64,000 nt of DNA, taken from positions 1,932,001-1,996,000 of the forward strand of contig NZ_CP061813.1 in assembly GCF_014784055.1 (NCBI RefSeq). Direction: 5' to 3'. Below the pieces are notes generated by a model. The model made no database searches. It saw only the letters and a program-made list of their open reading frames with translations, and was not told the origin of the DNA. Numbering within the stretch: the stretch's first letter is position 1; every line of letters starts with the position of its first letter. The position numbers were made by a program, and so were the translations under genes. This document shows positions 1 through 8,561 of the stretch, in pieces. The DNA is from Polaribacter haliotis (GTDB taxonomy: Bacteria > Bacteroidota > Bacteroidia > Flavobacteriales > Flavobacteriaceae).

Positions 1-348
1 AAAGCTAATACTTTAATTGAAATTACGAATAGAATAAGTGACATCGGATTTGAATACGAGACAGAGGACAAAAAACTATCTAAGTGGAATAGAAAACGTA
101 ATTATAGAGGTTTAGTCATTTACAAAATTGACAAAAACGGACAAAATGCATACGTTACGTTAACTGATAAAAATGGAGTTGTATTTTTTAGAGAACACCT
201 TTTAAAGAATAGGGTTTACGACTTCTTTAATAGTTTATATAAAACGAAATGGATTGGAGAAAAATTTCAGATTATTAATAGAGATGGAAATTTATTTAAA
301 GAATTTGATGCGGAAAAAACTGCTTACAACAATGTATATAAAAAATAG
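1..348 (+). CDS. 3' end of an unknown protein gene (cassette 0)
   Basis: The frame is open from the first base of the window and closes at TAG 346-348, leaving 115 residues with the start missing. I do not recognise the family. The visible part is polar and mixed in charge, with no membrane segment or cysteine motif; it contains the stretch GLVIYKIDKNGQNAYVTL, which looks like beta strand. The last codons (CTTACAACAATG...) run into the left arm of the first attC-like palindrome, so the C-terminus is encoded by the recombination site itself, as often happens in integron cassettes. It has the same orientation as most genes of the array. That it is real coding sequence is fairly sure because the frame is open and codon use matches its neighbours; the function is unknown. 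Confidence 0.6.
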   Translation, partial: KANTLIEITNRISDIGFEYETEDKKLSKWNRKRNYRGLVIYKIDKNGQNAYVTLTDKNGVVFFREHLLKNRVYDFFNSLYKTKWIGEKFQIINRDGNLFKEFDAEKTAYNNVYKK

Positions 349-522
349 CGCAAGTCGTTGCTAACACTAAGTCTTGGGCATTTTTCGGAAGTCGCCAAAT
401 TTTTAAATTTGACGATTTCCCAAAAATAAAATAAATAGTAAAATTTAAAAATTCGGCTTGTGTTTATCCGAAAAGTAACAGCTTATTTTCAGCACTACTT
501 TTCATATACGGAGCCGTTGGGT
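324..522 (+). repeat. attC-like site 0 (between cassettes 0 and 1)
   Basis: The R''-like end TTACAAC (324-330) and R'-like end GTTGGGT (516-522) bound an imperfect palindrome. The left arm GTATATAAAAAATAGCGC pairs with the reverse complement of the right arm (GTATATGAAAAGTAGTGC, 15 of 18 positions). Three bases separate CAAC from the arm on the left and six on the right, the same asymmetry as in all other sites. A second inverted repeat lies at about 388-421. At about 199 bp it is the longest site of the array. Confidence 0.65.
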
Positions 523-531
523 TTAATACGA

Positions 532-1230
532 ATGAAACATATAAACTACATTTTAATATTTCTATTTTTAGTTGGTTGCTCATCAACAAAAAAACTGACT
601 AAAAACAGTTCCAAACCGACAAAGTTTGTTTTTAAGAAATCTATGGTTTCTTCCCAAAATGGAATCTCGAATTTAAAATCAAAGCAGGATTCTTTAATTG
701 ATGCAACTTACAAGCCGAATGGAAAAGATTCTTTGATGAATAAAAAACTTAAGGAAATGCAGATGACTGATTTTCTAACTCAAACACCAGAAACGGAAAT
801 TTATGTAGAAATTCAAAATGACTCTATTTGGCGTTATACCAAACAAAAAGGTAAAATGATTGGCGATTATTTTATGATTCAAAAAAATAGCGGAATTTTA
901 AACTATTACGACAAATCCAAATCTGTCAATTATAGAAAGTATGACCTGTTTGCTAAAAATCACGAATACGAAATAGTTGAAAATCGAAAAGACAGAAAGG
1001 AAATAAAGGGTTTTGATTGTTACAAATTGACTTTAATAAAAAAAGACACAGAAAGCGACTTAGGAAATACGATTTACGAGATGTATGTGACTGACCAAAT
1101 TGAATTACCAATACATTCCGTTATTAATTTAACTAAACTTATTCCGAATAACTTTCCAATGGAAATTAAAGTCTGGGAAGAAAAACTTTCTGGAATGGCT
1201 GAATTATATGAATTAATCGGTATTGAATAA
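532..1230 (+). CDS. Predicted lipoprotein, GLPGLI-like (cassette 1)
   Basis: A 232-residue protein with a clear lipoprotein signal: MKHINYILIFLFLVGCSS, with lipobox LVGC and Cys at residue 16. It is probably anchored in the outer or inner membrane. The frame is open from a GTG at 460, but that start would place coding sequence across the attC-like site and hide the signal peptide, so ATG 532, just after the cassette boundary (GTTGGGTTTA, 516-525), is preferred. The C-terminal half has beta-rich stretches such as IKGFDCYKLTL and EMYVTDQIELPIHSV that recall GLPGLI/DUF4412-type periplasmic proteins of Bacteroidota; this is a resemblance only. The only short space for a promoter is inside the upstream palindrome, as usual for cassette genes. 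Function unknown. Confidence 0.75.
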   Translation: MKHINYILIFLFLVGCSSTKKLTKNSSKPTKFVFKKSMVSSQNGISNLKSKQDSLIDATYKPNGKDSLMNKKLKEMQMTDFLTQTPETEIYVEIQNDSIWRYTKQKGKMIGDYFMIQKNSGILNYYDKSKSVNYRKYDLFAKNHEYEIVENRKDRKEIKGFDCYKLTLIKKDTESDLGNTIYEMYVTDQIELPIHSVINLTKLIPNNFPMEIKVWEEKLSGMAELYELIGIE

Positions 1231-1235
1231 AGTAC

Positions 1236-1369
1236 TAAACCCAACAACGTATATAATTTATTGCTAGTTCTTGCCTACTTATGAAAATCCTCGCGGATTT
1301 TCTATTCGGTTTTTATTTGCTAAATTACGTGCTAAACCACGCAACAAACCATATACAAACACGTTGTGT
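1236..1369 (+). repeat. attC-like site 1
   Basis: The left end TAAACCCAAC (1236-1245) is the exact reverse complement of the start of the cassette it closes (GTTGGGTTTA, 516-525). The right end GTTGTGT (1363-1369) opens the next cassette. The left arm GTATATAATTTATTGC pairs with the right arm read in reverse complement (GTATATGGTTTGTTGC). The apical hairpin is GAAAATCC-tcgc-GGATTTTC (1283-1302). Spacers are three bases on the left and six on the right. Length is about 131-134 bp. Confidence 0.75.
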
Positions 1370-1390
1370 TTAATTTGAAAAAGAAAATTA

Positions 1391-1804
1391 ATGAAACAAA
1401 GTAAGATTTCTAAAACTTGGAATTATTACAAAAAAAATAGTTGGAAATTAGGAGTCTTAATTTTATCAATAGTTCTTTTTTACTTTGTTATTCAGAAAAT
1501 TGAATTGAAACAAAATTCCGTTGAAACTTATGGTAAAATATATGAAAAAAAACGAATTGTAAGTGGAATCAGAGTTGGACCTCTATTTAAGTACAAGTTT
1601 TGGTTTATGTATAATGGGAAAAAACATTTTGGAGAAACAACAAAAACTCTTGAAGGAGAAAATAATATTGGAAAAGTATTTAAAGTGAGAGTTTTAATGA
1701 ATAAACCTGAGAACTATGAAATTCTTTTTGACCAAGAATATGTTGAAAAATATATTATTGACAAAAACGGAATTAAAAAAACTCTATATTTTGAAAAAAA
1801 CTAA
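1391..1804 (+). CDS. Small membrane protein with one N-terminal helix (cassette 2)
   Basis: A 137-residue protein. Residues about 17-36 (LGVLILSIVLFYFVIQ) form one membrane helix after a basic N-terminus. The rest is a polar, beta-rich domain (ETYGKIYEKKRIVSG..., KYKFWFMYNGKKHFGETTK, GKVFKVRVLMNKPENYEILF). This layout resembles DUF3592-type proteins, where a small beta domain follows a helix, but the similarity is not strong enough to name the family. The gene starts 22 bp after the cassette boundary and its TAA stop (1802-1804) touches the left end of the next attC-like site, so the cassette is almost entirely coding. The cellular role is unknown; single-gene cassettes like this are typical of integron cargo. 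Confidence 0.7.
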   Translation: MKQSKISKTWNYYKKNSWKLGVLILSIVLFYFVIQKIELKQNSVETYGKIYEKKRIVSGIRVGPLFKYKFWFMYNGKKHFGETTKTLEGENNIGKVFKVRVLMNKPENYEILFDQEYVEKYIIDKNGIKKTLYFEKN

Positions 1805-1935
1805 ACACAACAACGTGTATAATTAATGGCTAGTTCTCGCCTACTTACGAAAATCCTCGCGGATTTTCTATTCGGTTTTTATTTGCTAAATTAGTTGCTT
1901 AAACACGCCACAAATCATACACAAAACCGTTGCCA
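1802..1935 (+). repeat. attC-like site 2
   Basis: The left end TAAACACAAC (1802-1811) is the reverse complement of the start of cassette 2 (GTTGTGTTTA, 1363-1372). The right end GTTGCCA (1929-1935) opens cassette 3. The arms GTGTATAATTAATGGC and (reverse complement) GTGTATGATTTGTGGC pair. Apical hairpin GAAAATCC-tcgc-GGATTTTC at 1849-1868. Nearly identical in its core to site 1. Confidence 0.75.
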
Positions 1936-1969
1936 GTAATACAAAACCAAACTAACTAAAAATCGAAGT

Positions 1970-2947
1970 ATGTTTAAAAAAGCAATAATAGAAGCCTTTC
2001 ACTGGAGTATGAAATGGTATTTTGGTTCATTTGCTGTAGCCATAGCAACTTTTTTCTTTTTTCAAAAAACCTTGGACTTCACAACTTGGCGTTCTATTAG
2101 ATATGGTTTAGCAATTTTCACTATAACATTTATTGTACGAGCATTTATACAATACATACAAAAAATCGATGATCTTGAGCAAACTGTAAATAAAAAACAA
2201 GAAAAAATCGATGTTTTTGAAAAAAGTAATAGTAAATCAGACTTAATTAAAAAATATAATTATTACGGAGAAGTACTTATCGCTTTAAAAGATATTTTTT
2301 CTCAAATAAACAAAATTAAAAGAAATGAAAATGTAACAAAAAAAGATATAAGTAATCAATTAATAAAACTTTCAAATAGGTTAAAATCTGTTTTTGAGAA
2401 ACGATTTAATAATAATTACTCTATTTCAATAAAGGTTATTTTAAAAGAAAAAGATATTCCTATATCTGAAAACTCTGAAATAATAACATTGATTCGTGAT
2501 GAAGAAAGTTATTTTGAAAGAAGGGATAATGCAAAAAACAACAATAAACATATTATAAAAGATAATACTTGTTTTAGTGAAATTCTAAAAAACATTGAAT
2601 CTCCAAATAAAGCATATTTTTTCTCTAATAATTTACCTAAATCGAATAACTATTGTAATAGTAGTGAAAAGGATTACGGAACAATGCAAAAAAATTTAGA
2701 AGAAAAAGAGAAATTAAAATACTGGACTTTACCTTACAAAAGCGAATTGGTTGTTCCAATTTCTCCTATATCATATAATACCAATGAAAGAAAAAATCAT
2801 TTTTTCGGTTATTTATGTGTAGATTGTAACGAAATTGAAGGATTCCATAAAAAATATGACGTTCATAATTTACTTGGATTAGCAGATGGAATATCTGATT
2901 TATTAGAACAATGGTTAATACTAAAAATTAAAGAAAATGGCGAATAA
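1970..2947 (+). CDS. Membrane protein with coiled coil and GAF-like C-terminal domain (cassette 3)
   Basis: A 325-residue protein. Two hydrophobic helices lie near residues 18-32 (FGSFAVAIATFFFFQ) and 46-62 (YGLAIFTITFIVRAFI). A charged, probably coiled-coil segment follows (about 65-90, IDDLEQTVNKKQEKIDVFEK), then a cytosolic domain. Its end (SELVVPISPISY..., FFGYLCVDCNEIEGF, DVHNLLGLADGISDLLEQW) has the strand-strand-helix pattern of the last part of a GAF domain, so it may sense a ligand or cell state; this is inference. No kinase or other output domain is visible. Its stop overlaps by 11 bp the start of a 43-residue frame (2937-3068), suggesting a two-gene cassette with translational coupling. 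It may be a membrane sensor or a defence-like accessory protein; no function can be assigned. Confidence 0.65.
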   Translation: MFKKAIIEAFHWSMKWYFGSFAVAIATFFFFQKTLDFTTWRSIRYGLAIFTITFIVRAFIQYIQKIDDLEQTVNKKQEKIDVFEKSNSKSDLIKKYNYYGEVLIALKDIFSQINKIKRNENVTKKDISNQLIKLSNRLKSVFEKRFNNNYSISIKVILKEKDIPISENSEIITLIRDEESYFERRDNAKNNNKHIIKDNTCFSEILKNIESPNKAYFFSNNLPKSNNYCNSSEKDYGTMQKNLEEKEKLKYWTLPYKSELVVPISPISYNTNERKNHFFGYLCVDCNEIEGFHKKYDVHNLLGLADGISDLLEQWLILKIKENGE

Positions 2948-3068
2948 AAAAAATTATAATTCAGAAAATAAAGATAAAAATACAAATTTTGACTTTTTTG
3001 AAAATTATAATAATAATGTTGAAGTAGTAGGATTTAGAACCTCTTGGATTTCTGAATTTAAAGATGAA
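2937..3068 (+). CDS. Possible 43-residue protein, second gene of cassette 3
   Basis: ATG 2937 lies inside the end of the upstream gene (overlap ATGGCGAATAA), and the frame runs to TGA 3066-3068. The product starts MANKKNYNSENKDKN and ends VGFRTSWISEFKR. It is very polar, rich in Asn and Lys, with no membrane helix. The overlapping start is the usual arrangement for coupled translation, which supports it, but the length and composition are close to what chance frames give in this AT-rich DNA. I cannot name a family. Confidence 0.4.
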
Positions 3069-3119
3069 ATGAAAAGTATATATGAAGGTGGAAAAAAATC
3101 TGAAAAAAAATAAAAGTAC

Positions 3120-3254
3120 TACTGGCAACACCGTGTATAATTAATTGCTGGTTTTAGCCAATTTACGAAAGTCCTCGCGGACTTTCTATCTATGATTTAT
3201 TTGCTAACTTTAGTGCTTAAAACACGCAACTAATCTTACACAACAACGTTGTGG
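3120..3254 (+). repeat. attC-like site 3
   Basis: The left end TACTGGCAAC (3120-3129) is the reverse complement of the start of cassette 3 (GTTGCCAGTA, 1929-1938). The right end GTTGTGG starts at 3248. Apical hairpin GAAAGTCC-tcgc-GGACTTTC (3167-3186) differs from sites 1 and 2 by one compensated base pair (A-T to G-C). Spacers are again three and six bases. Confidence 0.75.
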
Positions 3255-3259
3255 GTAAT

Positions 3260-3703
3260 TTAAGAAAGATGAGGCATTCCAGTTCCAGTTTCAACAAAAC
3301 TCTTTAAACTTTGAGTTACAAATCTTTCCCAAGCCGGAAAACAAATTTCATAACAGTTTAACTCAGGAACTAATCCATTATGTGCGAAATTTAGAATTGT
3401 TTCGTTTTGACCTTTTTCTTCCAAAACCCATTCAACAAGAGTTCCTTCCCACTCTTTTTCAATTCCATCATAACCGTTGTGAATATGTTTAGCCTCAATA
3501 CATTTCCATACAATTTTTGTATTTGGTTCAAATTCGGAGATTTTAAACTTCCAATAAGTACTATCAAAACTTGTTGTGAATTCATCACCAACTGAAGAAA
3601 CTGAATTATCTGTATTTCCCCACCATTTTTGGACGTGTTGTGAAATAGCATTGAATACTTGTTGTGTAGTTCCATTAATCGAAACCATTGTTGTGTATGA
3701 CAT
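3260..3703 (-). CDS. SRPBCC/AHSA1-like domain protein (cassette 4)
   Basis: A 147-residue protein on the minus strand, the only gene of the array pointing left. It reads as one START-like (SRPBCC) domain of the AHSA1 type: MVSINGTTQQVFNAIS at the start, WWG near residue 28, the middle strands KFKISEFEPNTKIVWKC and EWEGTLVEWVLEE, and a final helix FPAWERFVTQSLKSFVETG. Length fits the family (140-160). Members bind small hydrophobic ligands, and many are encoded next to ArsR or HxlR regulators, exactly as here: an HxlR-type gene diverges 95 bp away. The substrate cannot be told. The two genes together form one cassette bounded by GTTGTGGGTA and TACCCACAAC, and the shared intergenic region carries its own promoters. 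Confidence 0.85.
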   Translation of the reverse strand: MSYTTMVSINGTTQQVFNAISQHVQKWWGNTDNSVSSVGDEFTTSFDSTYWKFKISEFEPNTKIVWKCIEAKHIHNGYDGIEKEWEGTLVEWVLEEKGQNETILNFAHNGLVPELNCYEICFPAWERFVTQSLKSFVETGTGMPHLS

Positions 3704-3738
3704 AATTTAATTTTAAAATATTAATAGTGCTTGCGAAT

Positions 3739-3798
3739 TACAAGTGCAAATATATAAAAGTACTTTTATTTTACAAGTGCATTTTTATATATTTGCAT
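3739..3798. promoter_or_regulatory. Divergent promoter region with 16-bp palindrome, probable HxlR operator
   Basis: Between the AHSA1-like and HxlR-like genes lies the perfect palindrome ATAAAAGTACTTTTAT (3754-3769), flanked by two direct copies of TTACAAGTGCA (3738-3748 and 3771-3781). TATATTTG boxes of the Bacteroidota -7 type occur facing both ways: about 3789-3796 for the HxlR gene and about 3747-3754 on the minus strand for the AHSA1-like gene. HxlR-family sites are commonly TACT/AGTA-containing palindromes, so autoregulation is likely; this is inference. Confidence 0.55.
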
Positions 3799-4218
3799 AT
3801 GAAACAGATTGAAAGAAGGTCGGACTGTCCAATTAGCTTATCGCTTGACATTTTTGGAGACAAATGGACTTTACTAATTTTAAGAGATTTTATTTTCTTT
3901 AACAACAGACACTTTAACGAGTTAGTAACAGTTGAAAAAATATCTACAAATATTCTTGCTGACCGATTAAATCGACTACTTGAAAATGATGTTGTAAAAA
4001 AAGAAGTTGATAGGAATAATAAATCTTCATATCTGTATTCGTTAACAGAAAAAGGAATTGAATTAATTCCGATAGTTATTGAAATTTATAAATGGGGAGC
4101 AAACAATATTGACGGAAATAATGCTAATCGTGAATTTAAAAATGAATTGAATTCTAATTTTAATAAAGTGACATCGGAAATAGTTGACAGAATAAAAACT
4201 ACCCACAACAAAGTATAA
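3799..4218 (+). CDS. HxlR-family winged-helix transcriptional regulator (cassette 4)
   Basis: A 139-residue protein. The typical HxlR signature is complete: a cysteine near the N-terminus (RRSDCPISLSLDIFGDKW), TLLILRDFIFFNNRHFNEL, the recognition segment ISTNILADRLNRLLENDVV, and the wing YLYSLTEKGIELIPIVIEIYKW. The family senses redox or electrophilic stress through the conserved Cys (here residue 9) and controls neighbouring genes. ATG 3799 is chosen over an upstream ATG at 3727 because the family begins close to the conserved Cys and the earlier start would run through the promoter. The gene's last codons (TTHNKV) are encoded by the left end of attC-like site 4. The divergent AHSA1-like gene is the probable target. 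Confidence 0.9.
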   Translation: MKQIERRSDCPISLSLDIFGDKWTLLILRDFIFFNNRHFNELVTVEKISTNILADRLNRLLENDVVKKEVDRNNKSSYLYSLTEKGIELIPIVIEIYKWGANNIDGNNANREFKNELNSNFNKVTSEIVDRIKTTHNKV

Positions 4219-4335
4219 AATCAATGCTTGGTTCTGTGCTTAAACCAGCGATAAGTCCTGTTTTGCTACATCTGATTTTCCTGCGGAAAATCCTTGCACA
4301 CAAAACCGCACTAATCTTATACATAAACGTTGTGC
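4200..4335 (+). repeat. attC-like site 4
   Basis: The left end TACCCACAAC (4200-4209) is the reverse complement of the start of cassette 4 (GTTGTGGGTA, 3248-3257). The right end GTTGTGC starts at 4329. Arms GTATAAAATCAATGC and (reverse complement) GTATAAGATTAGTGC pair. The apical hairpin is of a second type: GATTTTCC-tgc-GGAAAATC (4274-4292). Spacers three and six bases. Confidence 0.75.
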
Positions 4336-4361
4336 ACAAGCTAAAAAAACGACTAATCGAA

Positions 4362-4763
4362 ATGAAAAATATAGAATTTAAAATCGGAATAGTTCCAAAA
4401 ACATCTGAAATAATTGAGGTTTATGATAGTTCGGGAATCAAAAGACCGACAAAAGATAGCGACCGAATTACTAAAATGTATAAAAATTCTAATCTGATTA
4501 TAACCGCGTGGTTGAATAATGAGCTGATTGGAATATCACGCTCAATAACTGATTTTTGTTATGCTTGCTATTTGTCGGATTTAGCTGTGAAAAGCGAATA
4601 CCAAAAAGAAGGAATCGGAAGGCAACTAATAAAACTGACAGAAAAAGAAATAGGTAAACAAACTGCATTAATTTTGCTTTCCGCACCATTAGCAATGGAA
4701 TACTATCCTAAAATTGGATTTGATAAAGTTGAAAATGGATTTATAATACGTCGAACTGAATAA
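4362..4763 (+). CDS. GNAT-family N-acetyltransferase (cassette 5)
   Basis: A 133-residue protein. The GNAT fold is recognisable: strand LIITAWLNNELIGISRSITD, strand CYLSDLAVKSEYQKEGIGRQLIKLTEKEIG with the acetyl-CoA binding motif Q-K-E-G-I-G-R (R/QxxGxG/A), and the C-terminal strand-helix ALILLSAPLAMEYYPKIGFDKVENGFIIR. It transfers an acetyl group from acetyl-CoA to an unknown amine. The length is slightly short but complete. The frame is open from 4224, but that would translate the attC-like palindrome; ATG 4362, 33 bp after the cassette boundary, is the natural start. GNAT enzymes are among the most frequent integron cassette products. Confidence 0.88.
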   Translation: MKNIEFKIGIVPKTSEIIEVYDSSGIKRPTKDSDRITKMYKNSNLIITAWLNNELIGISRSITDFCYACYLSDLAVKSEYQKEGIGRQLIKLTEKEIGKQTALILLSAPLAMEYYPKIGFDKVENGFIIRRTE

Positions 4764-4789
4764 TTTAATTTAGATATAAAAAAGCCTGA

Positions 4790-4922
4790 TGCACAACACT
4801 GTATAAAAATAATTGCGGTTTAGTGCTTAACCAAAGGTCGTTGCGAGTTTGTAACGTCTGATTTTCCTTCGGAAAATCCTCGCATACAAACCCGCAACTA
4901 TTCTTATACAAACACGTTGTGT
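4790..4922 (+). repeat. attC-like site 5
   Basis: The left end TGCACAAC (4790-4797) is the reverse complement of the start of cassette 5 (GTTGTGCA, 4329-4336). The right end GTTGTGT starts at 4916. Arms GTATAAAAATAATTGCGG and (reverse complement) GTATAAGAATAGTTGCGG pair at 16 of 18 positions. Apical hairpin GATTTTCC-ttc-GGAAAATC (4860-4878) is of the same type as site 4. Confidence 0.75.
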
Positions 4923-4946
4923 GGCATTTGAGAAAACCGAAATAAA

Positions 4947-6347
4947 ATGGTCGAAACAAGACAAGAATATCTCAAACGAATAAATTTCGTCTTAGATTTT
5001 ATTGATAAAAATCTTGATGTTGACCTATCACTTGAATATTTATCAAAGAAAGCTCATTATTCACCTTACCACTTTCATAGAGTATTTCTAACAGTAGTTA
5101 ACGAAAGATTAAATGAGTTTATCAATAGAAAAAGAATTGAGCGAATTGCTTCAATTCTACTTGTTGAACCAAAGATTCCCTTAATCGATTTAGCTTACAA
5201 ATACGGTTTTAATAGTGACAACTCTTTTTCACGAGCATTTAAGAAATACTATGGTATCAGTCCAACTAAATTTAAATCTGAGGGAAAAGAAATACTTAGC
5301 AAGATTGGTATAGAATTTTTTTCAACCGAAAAATACATTTGTTCCATTAATGATATTAAACAATGGACTAAAATGAATACACAAATAACGATTAAAGAAC
5401 TTCCTGAATTAAAACTTGCAAGTATATCTCATATTGGGAGCTTCGAAAAGGTAGCTAATATGTTTCAAAAGTTAATGGAATGGGGACATCAAAAAGGAAT
5501 ATTAGACACTTCAAATTTTAAAGCAATAACAATTTATCACGACAACCCTAATGTTACCCAAGCTTCAAAATTAAGATTCAGTACTTGCATAACAATTAGT
5601 GAGAACATTAATGCAGATGGAGAAATTAGACAAATAGACTTACAAAAAGGTACTTATGTCGTTGGGCATTTTGAAATTAAAGCAGAAGAAATTTCAAAAG
5701 CGTGGAAAAGTATGTGTATTTGGGTAATAGAAAATGGTTATGAATTTAGAGATGGTGATTATTTTGAAATGTATCATAATGACCACAAAACTCATCCCGA
5801 ACAAAAATTCATATTAGACATTTGTATTCCTTTACAAAAGACTAAAAACATTAAACTTGGAGAAATCAACAAAGTAAATCTGTCGAAATATAAAGCTCAA
5901 AACCAAAAATGTGAAAACAACTTAGATTATCATCAATTGATAAACTATATGAAAGAATTGAGGCTCTTTTTTCAAAAAGAGTATGGCACAATTTTTAGAC
6001 TCGGAAAGATTTATCAGGGAGACCCTAATTTCTCTTACTTTTCTCTAACGACAGATGAATTAAAAAAGCAAAAACTTAAATTCGTTATCATTTTAAATCA
6101 CAAAGAATTGTATTTTTCGATTTGCTTATCAGGTCAGAACAAAAGTATTCGAAAAAAGTATTGGAAGATTTTTAAAGGTAGCGATTGGAATAAATATCAT
6201 TTGGCAGAATCAATTGATGACAGTTTATCTATTATAGACCAGATAATTGTTGAAGAACCAAATTTTAATAATAAAAGAAGTTTAACCGAAAAGATTGAAA
6301 AGGAATCAATGAAATTTACTAGAGAACTAAAAGGTATACTTGAATAA
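4947..6347 (+). CDS. AraC-family regulator with GyrI-like domain and extra C-terminal domain (cassette 6)
   Basis: A 466-residue protein in three parts. Residues 1-110 are a complete AraC/XylS double helix-turn-helix (LSLEYLSKKAHYSPYHFHRVF and IDLAYKYGFNSDNSFSRAFKKYYGISPTKFK). About 145-300 is a GyrI-like/effector-binding domain (ELKLASISHIGSFEKV..., KGTYVVGHFEIKAEEISKAWKS, DGDYFEMYHND...LDICIPL). About 320-466 is a further domain (YMKELRLFFQKEYG..., KQKLKFVIILNHKELYFSI) that I do not recognise with certainty. AraC-GyrI fusions (Rob/SoxS-like layout) are multidrug-responsive regulators; the extra domain is unusual. The gene is the last cassette of the array, 30 bp after the boundary GTTGTGTGG. 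Confidence 0.85.
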   Translation: MVETRQEYLKRINFVLDFIDKNLDVDLSLEYLSKKAHYSPYHFHRVFLTVVNERLNEFINRKRIERIASILLVEPKIPLIDLAYKYGFNSDNSFSRAFKKYYGISPTKFKSEGKEILSKIGIEFFSTEKYICSINDIKQWTKMNTQITIKELPELKLASISHIGSFEKVANMFQKLMEWGHQKGILDTSNFKAITIYHDNPNVTQASKLRFSTCITISENINADGEIRQIDLQKGTYVVGHFEIKAEEISKAWKSMCIWVIENGYEFRDGDYFEMYHNDHKTHPEQKFILDICIPLQKTKNIKLGEINKVNLSKYKAQNQKCENNLDYHQLINYMKELRLFFQKEYGTIFRLGKIYQGDPNFSYFSLTTDELKKQKLKFVIILNHKELYFSICLSGQNKSIRKKYWKIFKGSDWNKYHLAESIDDSLSIIDQIIVEEPNFNNKRSLTEKIEKESMKFTRELKGILE

Positions 6348-6353
6348 AAACGA

Positions 6354-6395
6354 CCACACAACATGCGTATATAACAAATAAAAATAGTGTAAATT
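6354..6395 (+). repeat. Truncated attC-like half-site closing cassette 6
   Basis: CCACACAAC (6354-6362) is the reverse complement of the start of cassette 6 (GTTGTGTGG, 4916-4924), and the left-arm motif CGTATATAACAAATAAAAATAG follows. No matching right arm, apical hairpin or GTTG end can be seen before rpe. The site seems to have lost its right half, which would lock the last cassette in place and marks the distal end of the array. Confidence 0.6.
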
Positions 6396-6492
6396 TTAAT
6401 TATTAAAATAGAGAATTCTAAAATAGCTATTTTTTTTTCAAATTTTAAACTCTTTTAAAGGCACACTGTATTACAAAGTATCTCTTTCTTAG

Positions 6493-6500
6493 TATCTTTG
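6493..6500 (+). promoter_or_regulatory. Putative -7 box for rpe
   Basis: TATCTTTG fits the TAnnTTTG -7 element of Bacteroidota and lies 27 bp before the rpe ATG. No convincing -33 TTG at the expected distance was found. The rest of 6396-6527 shows only AT-rich sequence. Confidence 0.45.
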
Positions 6501-6527
6501 TAAAACAAAATATATACAATAAATAAA

Positions 6528-7184
6528 ATGAGTAATTTAATTGCACCTTCAATTTTAGCAGCAGATTTTGGTAATTTGCAAAGAGACGTAGAAATGGTAA
6601 ACAATAGCGAAGCAGATTGGTTTCATATTGATATTATGGATGGTGTTTTTGTGCCAAATATTTCTTACGGTATGCCAGTTTTAAAAGCAATTTCTAAACA
6701 TGCTACAAAAACTATTGATGTGCATTTAATGATTGTAAACCCAGATCAATACATACAAACATTTGCAGATTTAGGCGCAAATATTCTTACAGTTCATTAC
6801 GAAGCTTGTACACATTTACACAGAACAGTTCAAGCAATAAAAGCTGCAGGAATGAAAGCTGGAGTTGCATTAAATCCTCACACACCTATCTCTGTTTTAG
6901 AAGATATTATTGTAGATTTAGATTTGGTTTGTATTATGAGTGTAAACCCTGGTTTTGGCGGACAATCTTTTATAGAAAATACGTATAAAAAAACGGCACA
7001 ATTAAGACACTTAATTGAATTCTCTAAATCTAACTGTAAAATAGAAATTGATGGAGGAGTTACCAACAAAAATGCTAATGAATTAATTGAAGCTGGAGCA
7101 AATGTTCTAGTTGCAGGAAGTTATGTTTTTGGAGCAGAAAACCCAACAGAAACAATAGAAAATTTAAAAAACCTAATAAACTAA
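6528..7184 (+). CDS. rpe: Ribulose-phosphate 3-epimerase
   Basis: A 218-residue cytoplasmic TIM-barrel enzyme that interconverts D-ribulose 5-phosphate and D-xylulose 5-phosphate in the pentose phosphate pathway. Family motifs are all present: IAPSILAADFGNL at the N-terminus, the metal-site HIDIMDGVFVPNISYG, DVHLMI, VHYEA, MSVNPGFGGQSFI, and the phosphate-binding EIDGGV...GANVLVAGSYVF. Length is standard. The start MSNLIAPSILAAD is typical. The nuclease gene follows directly after the stop (TAA then TTG), so the two are likely co-transcribed. This gene marks the boundary between the cassette array and conserved chromosome. Confidence 0.97.
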   Translation: MSNLIAPSILAADFGNLQRDVEMVNNSEADWFHIDIMDGVFVPNISYGMPVLKAISKHATKTIDVHLMIVNPDQYIQTFADLGANILTVHYEACTHLHRTVQAIKAAGMKAGVALNPHTPISVLEDIIVDLDLVCIMSVNPGFGGQSFIENTYKKTAQLRHLIEFSKSNCKIEIDGGVTNKNANELIEAGANVLVAGSYVFGAENPTETIENLKNLIN

Positions 7185-8561
7185 TTGCTATATACAGTAA
7201 TAGACATAGAAACTACAGGAAATGGATATAAAGGTTCTAAAATAACCGAAATATCCATTTTTGTTTTTGATGGAAAAAAAGTTGTAGACGAATACACAAC
7301 ACTTATAAATCCAGAACAAAATATTCCGCCATTTATTACCAATCTTACAGGCATTACAAATGCAATGGTAAGGAATGCGCCTAAATTTTATGAAGTTGCT
7401 AGAAAGATTGAAGAAATTACAAAAAACACCATTTTTGTAGCACATAATGTAAACTTCGATTATAACATAATTCAAGCTGAATTTAAAAGTTTAGGATTCG
7501 ATTTTAAACGAAAAAAACTATGTACAGTTCGTTTGTCGAGAAAAATTATTCCTGGTTTAAATTCTTATAGTTTAGGTAATATTTGTACTTCAGAAAATAT
7601 TCCAATTAACGGCAGACACAGAGCCAAAGGCGATGCAGAAGCCACAACAGAATTATTTAGAAGGTTAATTGAAAGAGATGATCAATTTATTATTAATTCA
7701 TTTCTGCACCCACGTTCTAGACAAGCAACCTTACCACCTCTTTTAGATAAAAAAGTTGTTGATAATTTACCCGAAACTTTTGGCGTTTATTACTTTAAAA
7801 ATTTAGCAAAAGAAGTTATTTATGTTGGTAAAGCTAACAACATAAAGCAACGTGTAATCAGTCATTTTTACGATAAGAAGAAAAAGGAACAAAATATGTG
7901 TTTAGAAACCGCAGACATTTCCTTTATAGAAACTGGTAGCGAATTACTAGCACTACTTTTAGAGTCTGAAGAAATTAAACACATTTATCCAAAATATAAT
8001 AGAGCGCAAAGAAGAGCAGGAGAAGCTGTTGGTTTATTTTCTTATGAAGATCAAAAAGGGATTATTCATTTGGCTTATAACCGCTTAAAATTAGCTCCCA
8101 ATCCAATAATGAAGTACTATTCTGTTGCAGAATGTAGAAATCATTTAGAGGTTCTTTGTAAAGAATTTGAATTATGCCCTAAATATTGTCATTTACAAAC
8201 CAATGTCTCTAGTTGTTTTCATTATCAACTGAAAGAATGTAAAGGTATTTGTTGCGATAAAGAAGCTGTGGATGATTATAATATTCGTGTTAGACAAGCC
8301 ATTAAATCTGTAGGAATTGATGCAGAAAATTTAATTATTAAAGAAACAGGAAGAACAAAAGATGAAGTAGGTTTTGCTTTAATTTTAGATGGAATCTACA
8401 AAGGAATTGGTTATTTAGATACTTCTCAAGATGTGCTGTTAGAAAACCCAGCAGATTATCAATTCTTTGTTGAACCAAAAAAAGATAATAGAGATATTCA
8501 AAGAATATTAACGGCTTATATTAGAAAAACAGAAGAAATTAAACTTCTAGCTAATGATTAA
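7185..8561 (+). CDS. Fused DnaQ-like 3'-5' exonuclease and GIY-YIG nuclease (Cho/UvrC-N type)
   Basis: A 458-residue protein. Residues 1-170 are a DEDD exonuclease of the DNA polymerase III epsilon/PolC type: motif I VIDIETTG, motif II VAHNVNFDYNII, motif III HRAKGDAEATTELF. Residues about 195-275 are a GIY-YIG domain as in UvrC and Cho (FGVYYFKNLAKEVIYVGKANNIKQRV), followed by a Cys-containing region (CHLQTNVSSCFHYQLKECKGICC) similar to Cho-like proteins. This fusion is known in Bacteroidota and is thought to act in DNA repair. The start is TTG 7185, right after the rpe stop; the next in-frame ATG is about residue 58 and would remove the catalytic DIET motif, so TTG is strongly supported. 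Confidence 0.9.
   Translation: MLYTVIDIETTGNGYKGSKITEISIFVFDGKKVVDEYTTLINPEQNIPPFITNLTGITNAMVRNAPKFYEVARKIEEITKNTIFVAHNVNFDYNIIQAEFKSLGFDFKRKKLCTVRLSRKIIPGLNSYSLGNICTSENIPINGRHRAKGDAEATTELFRRLIERDDQFIINSFLHPRSRQATLPPLLDKKVVDNLPETFGVYYFKNLAKEVIYVGKANNIKQRVISHFYDKKKKEQNMCLETADISFIETGSELLALLLESEEIKHIYPKYNRAQRRAGEAVGLFSYEDQKGIIHLAYNRLKLAPNPIMKYYSVAECRNHLEVLCKEFELCPKYCHLQTNVSSCFHYQLKECKGICCDKEAVDDYNIRVRQAIKSVGIDAENLIIKETGRTKDEVGFALILDGIYKGIGYLDTSQDVLLENPADYQFFVEPKKDNRDIQRILTAYIRKTEEIKLLAND

Follow-up and report, generated by a model that had tools for sequence, protein, structure and literature searches.

An integron-like gene-capture system in Polaribacter haliotis whose candidate integrase lacks the IntI insertion

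Introduction

An integron cassette, taken as a circle, has two ends that pair with each other, and the two sides of any one arrayed site derive from different cassettes. The integrase gene of classical integrons is opposite in orientation to the cassettes. Here we analyse a row of cassette-like units with attC-like hairpin sites in a window of 64,000 nucleotides, which is positions 1932001-1996000 of the 3.80-Mb single-contig genome of Polaribacter haliotis (NZ_CP061813.1). The row appears to be part of an integron-type gene-capture system, most likely run by an Xer-like recombinase encoded at 2003811-2004980, a reading to which we give a probability of about 0.9.

Cassette capture requires the I2 helix of the integron integrase, according to the accessible part of one paper (PMC7790495), which knows the helix from no other protein and confines both I2 and single-strand recombination to integron integrases. 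An excerpt of another (PMC8138268) reports that an I2-type insertion is incompletely conserved in its integron-like subgroup, yet essential for function. Integron finders search for the IntI-specific domain, according to the available portion of a third (PMC9668308), and a partial source has IntegronFinder reporting no integrons in one Tenacibaculum genome. We found no description of the present system in the titles or abstract openings of the searched literature, with preprints and most subscription journals lying outside it.

Results

Six sites, taken from AAC to GTT, and a closing half-site bound seven units at window positions 1-6395. Five sites are 123-125 nt long (about 132 with flanks) and the sixth is 191 nt. 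The first-pass annotation of this DNA had described seven units, five palindromes of about 132 bp and one longer, and a closing half-site, and the row is as described. A cassette opens with GTT and closes with AAC, and the letters next to these form its boxes.

1..330, plus strand: unit 1, end of a cassette that starts left of the window, with a box match of 7 to the preceding site (genome 1931513-1931635)
328..518, plus strand: long attC-like site, 191 nt, with an inserted sub-hairpin
516..1245, plus strand: cassette 2; open reading frame (ORF) 532-1230, lipoprotein-like by eye, without Pfam match
1243..1365, plus strand: attC-like site
1363..1811, plus strand: cassette 3; ORF 1391-1804, unknown product
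1809..1931, plus strand: attC-like site
1929..3129, plus strand: cassette 4; ORFs 1970-2947 and 2937-3113, unknown products
3127..3250, plus strand: attC-like site
3248..4209, plus strand: cassette 5; minus-strand ORF 3260-3703 (without Pfam match) and HxlR regulator 3799-4218
4207..4331, plus strand: attC-like site, second subtype
4329..4797, plus strand: cassette 6; GNAT acetyltransferase 4362-4763, with copies in arrays D and A
4795..4918, plus strand: attC-like site, second subtype
4916..6362, plus strand: cassette 7; AraC-type regulator 4947-6347 with GyrI-like, Cass2 and DUF7000 domains
6360..6387, plus strand: terminal half-site, left arm only; the array stops ahead of rpe (6528-7184)

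A covariance model, R1, built from 33 sites of this genome gave 42 matches in it at E ≤ 1, 38 of them at E < 1e-6. Single dispersed palindromes with no cassette order had been named in the annotation as the finding that would speak against an integron; 34 of the 36 sites lie in four same-strand clusters and a few are single copies. The window row is the right-hand part of array C, the attI-like head of which is about 5 kb left of window position 1. A 41-nt attI core has exactly three copies in the genome (up to 3 mismatches searched, 0-2 found), each heading an array, and the reversed-sequence control gave 0 matches there.

380.4-387.6 kb, minus strand: array A
1030-1035.8 kb: array B
1927.6-1936.9 kb: array C, 11 sites, containing the window row
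2005.4-2013.3 kb: array D
After the recombinase gene: attI core copy, heading array D
1926982, after a gene taken by eye for rpoD: attI core copy, heading array C
388413: attI core copy, heading array A

The boxes are specific to cassettes. In all seven units of the window the letters that follow the opening GTT are, for the first 5 positions or more, the reverse complement of those leading up to the closing AAC, and 28 of the 31 cassettes of the genome reach 5 or more such matches. Of the three that do not, one spans a diverged site (L054:16392-16516; L and a number label a locus stretch, G and a number a genome of the same genus) found later by R1. Over 29 cassette pairs in the four arrays, 214 of 261 box letters match, whereas 20,000 permutations averaged 104 and never exceeded 145; a pair spanning a degenerate site at 383.1 kb had been set aside beforehand.

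The same pairing extends to loci of the genus and of named flavobacteria, where 237 of 263 cassettes pass (permutation maximum 21) and the two sides of one site do so in 27 of 335. L090 and L127 are one contig, hence a few pairs are counted twice. Only AAC and GTT are kept in the box consensus: GTTRRRY fits 6 of 36 sites and RYYYAAC 6 of 36, as loose as the annotation had judged.

Near-identical cassettes locate the junctions. Among 396 cassettes, 110 such pairs were obtained, and in no pair do the flanks agree on both sides. At differing flanks the identity stops no more than 2 nt past GTT in 86 of 106 right ends and no more than 2 nt ahead of GTT in 62 of 79 left ends. The copies of the GNAT cassette in arrays C, D and A agree from one CGTT to the next. 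These junctions indirectly support an exchange at the GTT of the R' box, to within 2 nt.

One cassette is about 90% alike in L175 (Algibacter mikhailovii) and L099 (relative G009), which are of two genera and have different neighbourhoods. Cassette 5 with its HxlR gene has a 97% copy at L050.

The 33 sites of the genome share a 16-pair stem with 95.7% of its cells paired. Neither this pairing nor the covariation score was reached by any of 500 shuffles; six pairs are changed on both sides, a weak measure, as 38 of 500 shuffles reach that number. For the best 150 of 231 matches at 24 chosen loci (145 distinct), 99.2% of the cells pair and 10 of the 16 pairs are changed on both sides, in an alignment that was fitted to the model and so leans towards it. 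Some unpaired stem letters are invariant, namely A13, A18 and C113 in 145 of 145 and C120 in 136 (alignment A5).

Classical attC sites, too, are recognised via unpaired bases, as the accessible section of PMC2727003 puts it. The paired changes together with the invariant mismatches within the stem suggest here a recognition of the folded strand. Folding energies of five sites differ from those of shuffled sequences by z of -1.39 to -3.88, modestly for four, and RNAalifold alone predicts 9 of the 16 stem pairs. The likeness to Vibrio repeats that had been pointed out stands for length and plan and is limited to these, the sequences being uncompared. An Rfam search of window positions 1-8000 gave 7 matches at E ≤ 5, all far under the gathering scores, with no attC family.

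The annotation had seen no integrase, and indeed none is in the row, but a candidate is present elsewhere in the genome, outside the window. It is the best IntI-like protein of the genome, a 389-residue ORF product (2003811-2004980) about 8 kb right of the window. Its gene is directly ahead of array D and runs into attI at its 3' end, and the gene just before it was taken by eye for pnp. The protein has a Phage_integrase domain (130.5 bits), and the residues that we take to be catalytic fall in invariant alignment columns.

The recombinase scores 219.4 with NF040815 (cut-off 220) and 196.5 bits with the IntI model (cut-off 265), and no protein of the genome is over the latter cut-off. Its nearest solved structures are XerA-type enzymes and then IntI4. 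The predicted model has a mean pLDDT of 79.2 and a pTM of 0.50, and the rows of the structure comparison cover residues 94-358, so they say nothing on the fold of the N-terminal part. Residues 1-95 contain beta and alpha elements and have no Pfam match at or above cut-off.

The extra motif of the IntI type, which the annotation had expected in the recombinase, is missing. The distance from GLR to HxxRH is 91-92 residues in all 21 recombinases of this kind but 133 in all 17 true IntI of the phylum (18 loci were offered, one without protein). It is 92-96 in nine of ten distant recombinases, the tenth having a wrong motif anchor, and three Xer-like proteins of P. haliotis itself have 86-98. In the IntI4 alignment, 59 IntI4 residues are opposite 14 of the recombinase. 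The tree puts IntI and the enzymes of the genus in separate clades (100/100 and 99/99), long branches limiting the tree to this separation.

Recombinase copies with in-frame stops occur in G018, G033, G037, G046, G049 and G001, and these genomes still have sites.

The recombinase gene, attI and the sites are linked beyond this genome. In 86 of 101 loci the stop of the recombinase gene is followed by an attI motif that ends in TATAAC..GTT, and in 36 of 50 the first cassette has matching boxes. When both flanks of the named loci were sought equally, 126 of 127 sites were downstream of the recombinase gene, and 355 of 359 sites are on its strand. Solo attI copies head arrays in G037, G003 (two), G057 and G020, where the family recombinase is absent from the fetched stretches; by eye, their likeness to the enzyme-linked attI extends about 100 bp back into the 3' end of the recombinase gene. 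P. haliotis has a single recombinase of this family at E ≤ 1e-60, so one enzyme seems to serve several arrays.

Within the genus, R1 at E ≤ 1e-3 matches 56 of 58 genomes, P. haliotis included, with a best E ≤ 1e-10 in 48; two of the 56 have one match each, near the limit, and eight genomes have at least 60 matches. The covariance model and the scan of relatives had been proposed by the annotation, and its poorly described family of Bacteroidota sites, like its integron-like reading, is borne out by the same-strand tandem arrays, the attI-like head and the linkage to a tyrosine recombinase. Sites span more than 100 kb in G037 (1063-1222 kb) and in G052 (1193-1303 kb), these being the extents of the sites and not necessarily of unbroken cassette rows. 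At E ≤ 1e-60, 40 of the 58 genomes have the recombinase, and 20 of 21 fetched genus loci, as stretches mostly downstream of the gene, have R1 sites.

A scan of named genomes gave at least 554 recombinase relatives at E ≤ 1e-3, not all of this kind, and 80 loci were kept, from Winogradskyella, Algibacter, Lutibacter, Gillisia, Christiangramia, Salegentibacter, Psychroflexus, Maribacter and others. A site is present in 37 of the 80, and in 26 of the 37 with at least 2 kb downstream. In the order, among the matches listed, 34 genomes have both sites and recombinase and 205 have neither (p 2.4e-12, by a statistic that ignores kinship). Sites also occur in five plasmid records, from Tenacibaculum finnmarkense, Persicobacter and Flagellimonas. 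The phage collection gave no site match, and the 20-base site core occurs in 7 stretches of viral contigs.

Of 395 genomes sampled from the phylum, 108 contain a match to the recombinase, which often lacks the N-terminal part. Thirteen of these loci, three of the same family and the rest further off, were searched without a site model, and eight have site-linked cassettes. Their 24 sites in all are 122-127 nt with the plan of AAC, paired arms and GTT, and the R1-type profile misses most of them, its clear matches being confined to L248. A TATAAACAAGTT-like stretch lies ahead of the first cassette in several distant loci.

Chains in shuffled sequences reach 2-3, and the longest real ones are 7 (L241) and 8 (L247, partly within the recombinase gene). 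This search found no linked sites in L238, L239 and L240, and L243 and L249 are short; real against shuffled chains are 3 and 3 in L245, 4 and 3 in L248, and 2 and 2 in L250. The first listed L245 site looks like chance.

True IntI is over cut-off in 105 of the 395 genomes. Among the 107 matches listed, one genome is of the same class, the rest are further off and none is in the order, so the system is not a relabelling of the known IntI integrons of the phylum.

The window cassettes carry a lipoprotein-like protein, GNAT, HxlR and AraC-type regulators and unknowns. The AraC-type protein matches Pfam Cass2, 'integron-associated effector binding protein'. Pfam and PADLOC were run on 144 picked cassette proteins, with the first 25 families of matches covered, hence no enrichment is claimed; the PADLOC matches listed include SduA, SoFic, AbiU, HEC-06, PD-T7-4 and candidate PDC families. 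With such defence-type genes, the arrays may be a store of them in marine bacteria. An ORF of at least 60 residues is present in 184 of 229 cassettes, and the longest one runs with the site in 164 of the 184. The other 45 are without one, some in many near-copies beside attI, and include first cassettes in L054, L088, L101 and others.

Array C sits between rpoD and rpe, which are 11.7 kb apart. Both genes are visible in 10 of 11 fetched relatives, and in nine they are 138-883 bp apart with no attI or site between. The gap in G009 has attI, one cassette and a similar terminal half-site.

The terminal half-site AACAT[GC]CG[TA]ATATAACAAATA is common to three array ends (window 6360; L050 minus strand 7256; L217 6815). 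The end of the HxlR cassette is a full site in array C and a terminal half-site at 362 kb. Two long sites (window 328-518; L054:12903-13090) have an extra internal AT-rich inverted repeat. At the expected attI place of array B is a short palindrome with CACAAC and GTT ends (L052:4405-4460), and the first cassette follows.

An insertion-sequence-like element starting TATGACCCGTCCTGAATAAAGG directly follows the GTTnnnnnnAAT in three cassettes whose boxes differ, as though it targeted cassette starts. Its places in the genome are beside the sites at 380425 (minus), 1031130 (plus) and 2013194 (plus), with transposase ORFs at L054:17375-18597.

Discussion

Cassettes, each of one or two genes and one attC-like hairpin site, would move as circles and be joined at GTT to attI or to the site of another cassette. 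The enzyme would most likely be the Xer-like tyrosine recombinase of 2003811-2004980, and the two solo attI copies heading arrays C and A would presumably be served in trans.

A different view is that the sites are dispersed palindromic repeats, of the repetitive extragenic palindromic (REP) or miniature inverted-repeat transposable element (MITE) type, that happen to sit between genes. The few single copies in the genome would fit it, but the clustering, the common strand, the attI heads, the cassette-specific boxes and the junctions contradict it, and we give it next to no credence. It is quite improbable, too, that integron-type arrays have their cassettes moved by another enzyme, be it a housekeeping Xer-like protein, the 448-residue recombinase at 364 kb or a true IntI from outside, with the linked recombinase doing another job. 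The genome does have further tyrosine recombinases, sites occur without a recombinase match in 17 genomes of the order, and IntI1 is able to use attC sites of a Polaribacter phage, by the part of PMC9892861 available. However, the attI motif comes directly after the linked recombinase in most loci, the arrays follow its gene, and IntI is over cut-off neither in the genome nor, among the matches listed, in the order.

The enzyme may instead act on ordinary double-stranded sites, as Xer does at dif, with the hairpin plan having another role and the attC likeness being a convergent layout. We consider this unlikely, though it merits serious attention: the recombinase is without the I2 helix, XerA enzymes are its nearest structures, and the folding energies are just modestly under those of shuffled sequences in four of five sites. 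Against it, the stem pairs change together while the mismatches within the stem are invariant, which suggests that a folded strand is recognised.

Several points weigh against an integron-type system run by the linked recombinase. The enzyme lacks the IntI insertion of about 41 residues that bears I2, and the 448-residue tyrosine recombinase (364.1 kb) is near a single site. No attI core was found at array B among the matches of the genome, nor any attI ahead of either of the distant arrays in G013 and G017, and the attI motif is absent after the recombinase in 15 of 101 loci. No site was found in 11 of the 37 named loci with at least 2 kb downstream, and in the order, among the matches listed, 17 genomes have sites only and 40 the recombinase only. 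The junction pairs are not independent because a few repeated cassettes yield many of them, and the left flanks of cassettes are other sites, hence partly alike. Recombination itself, by this enzyme and on a folded single strand, we infer from sequence.

Standard search tools miss the system because its enzyme apparently lacks the part thought essential for integrons, and marine flavobacteria carry this gene-capture system in large numbers. We lean, with some reserve, towards a second integron form across Bacteroidota, in which an I2-less integrase would work on folded attC-type hairpins and one enzyme would serve several attI-headed arrays. If so, the I2 insertion is not the innovation that enabled hairpin recombination. 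The view that I2 and single-strand recombination are exclusive to integron integrases, as given in the accessible part of PMC7790495, is now directly testable.

Among the known systems, XerA, XerC and XerD (NF040815, with the NCBI name 'site-specific tyrosine recombinase/integron integrase') share the fold and give the best scores, whereas the recombinase here has an N-terminal extra of about 95 residues and is linked to attI and cassette arrays. The Acinetobacter Xer-dif resistance modules, as described in the available text of PMC7399989, are likewise flanked by sites of an Xer-type enzyme, but here the sites are long hairpins that covary, and their cassettes stand in tandem. Three of the arrays resemble CALIN (attC clusters without integrase) in having no adjoining family recombinase gene; two of them, however, begin with an intact attI, and the recombinase is encoded at another place in the genome.

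Shared with the sedentary chromosomal integron are tandem cassettes on one strand, an attI next to the integrase gene, paired end boxes, GTT junctions, hairpin sites of 120-odd nt and large arrays. In contrast, the integrase here is without the IntI insertion, its gene is on the strand of the cassettes, the boxes are mostly not RYYYAAC/GTTRRRY and several attI-headed arrays occur per genome. The system is thus integron-like on every sequence test made, yet by its integrase it is not an IntI integron; it seems to be an I2-less integron with one enzyme serving several attI-headed arrays.

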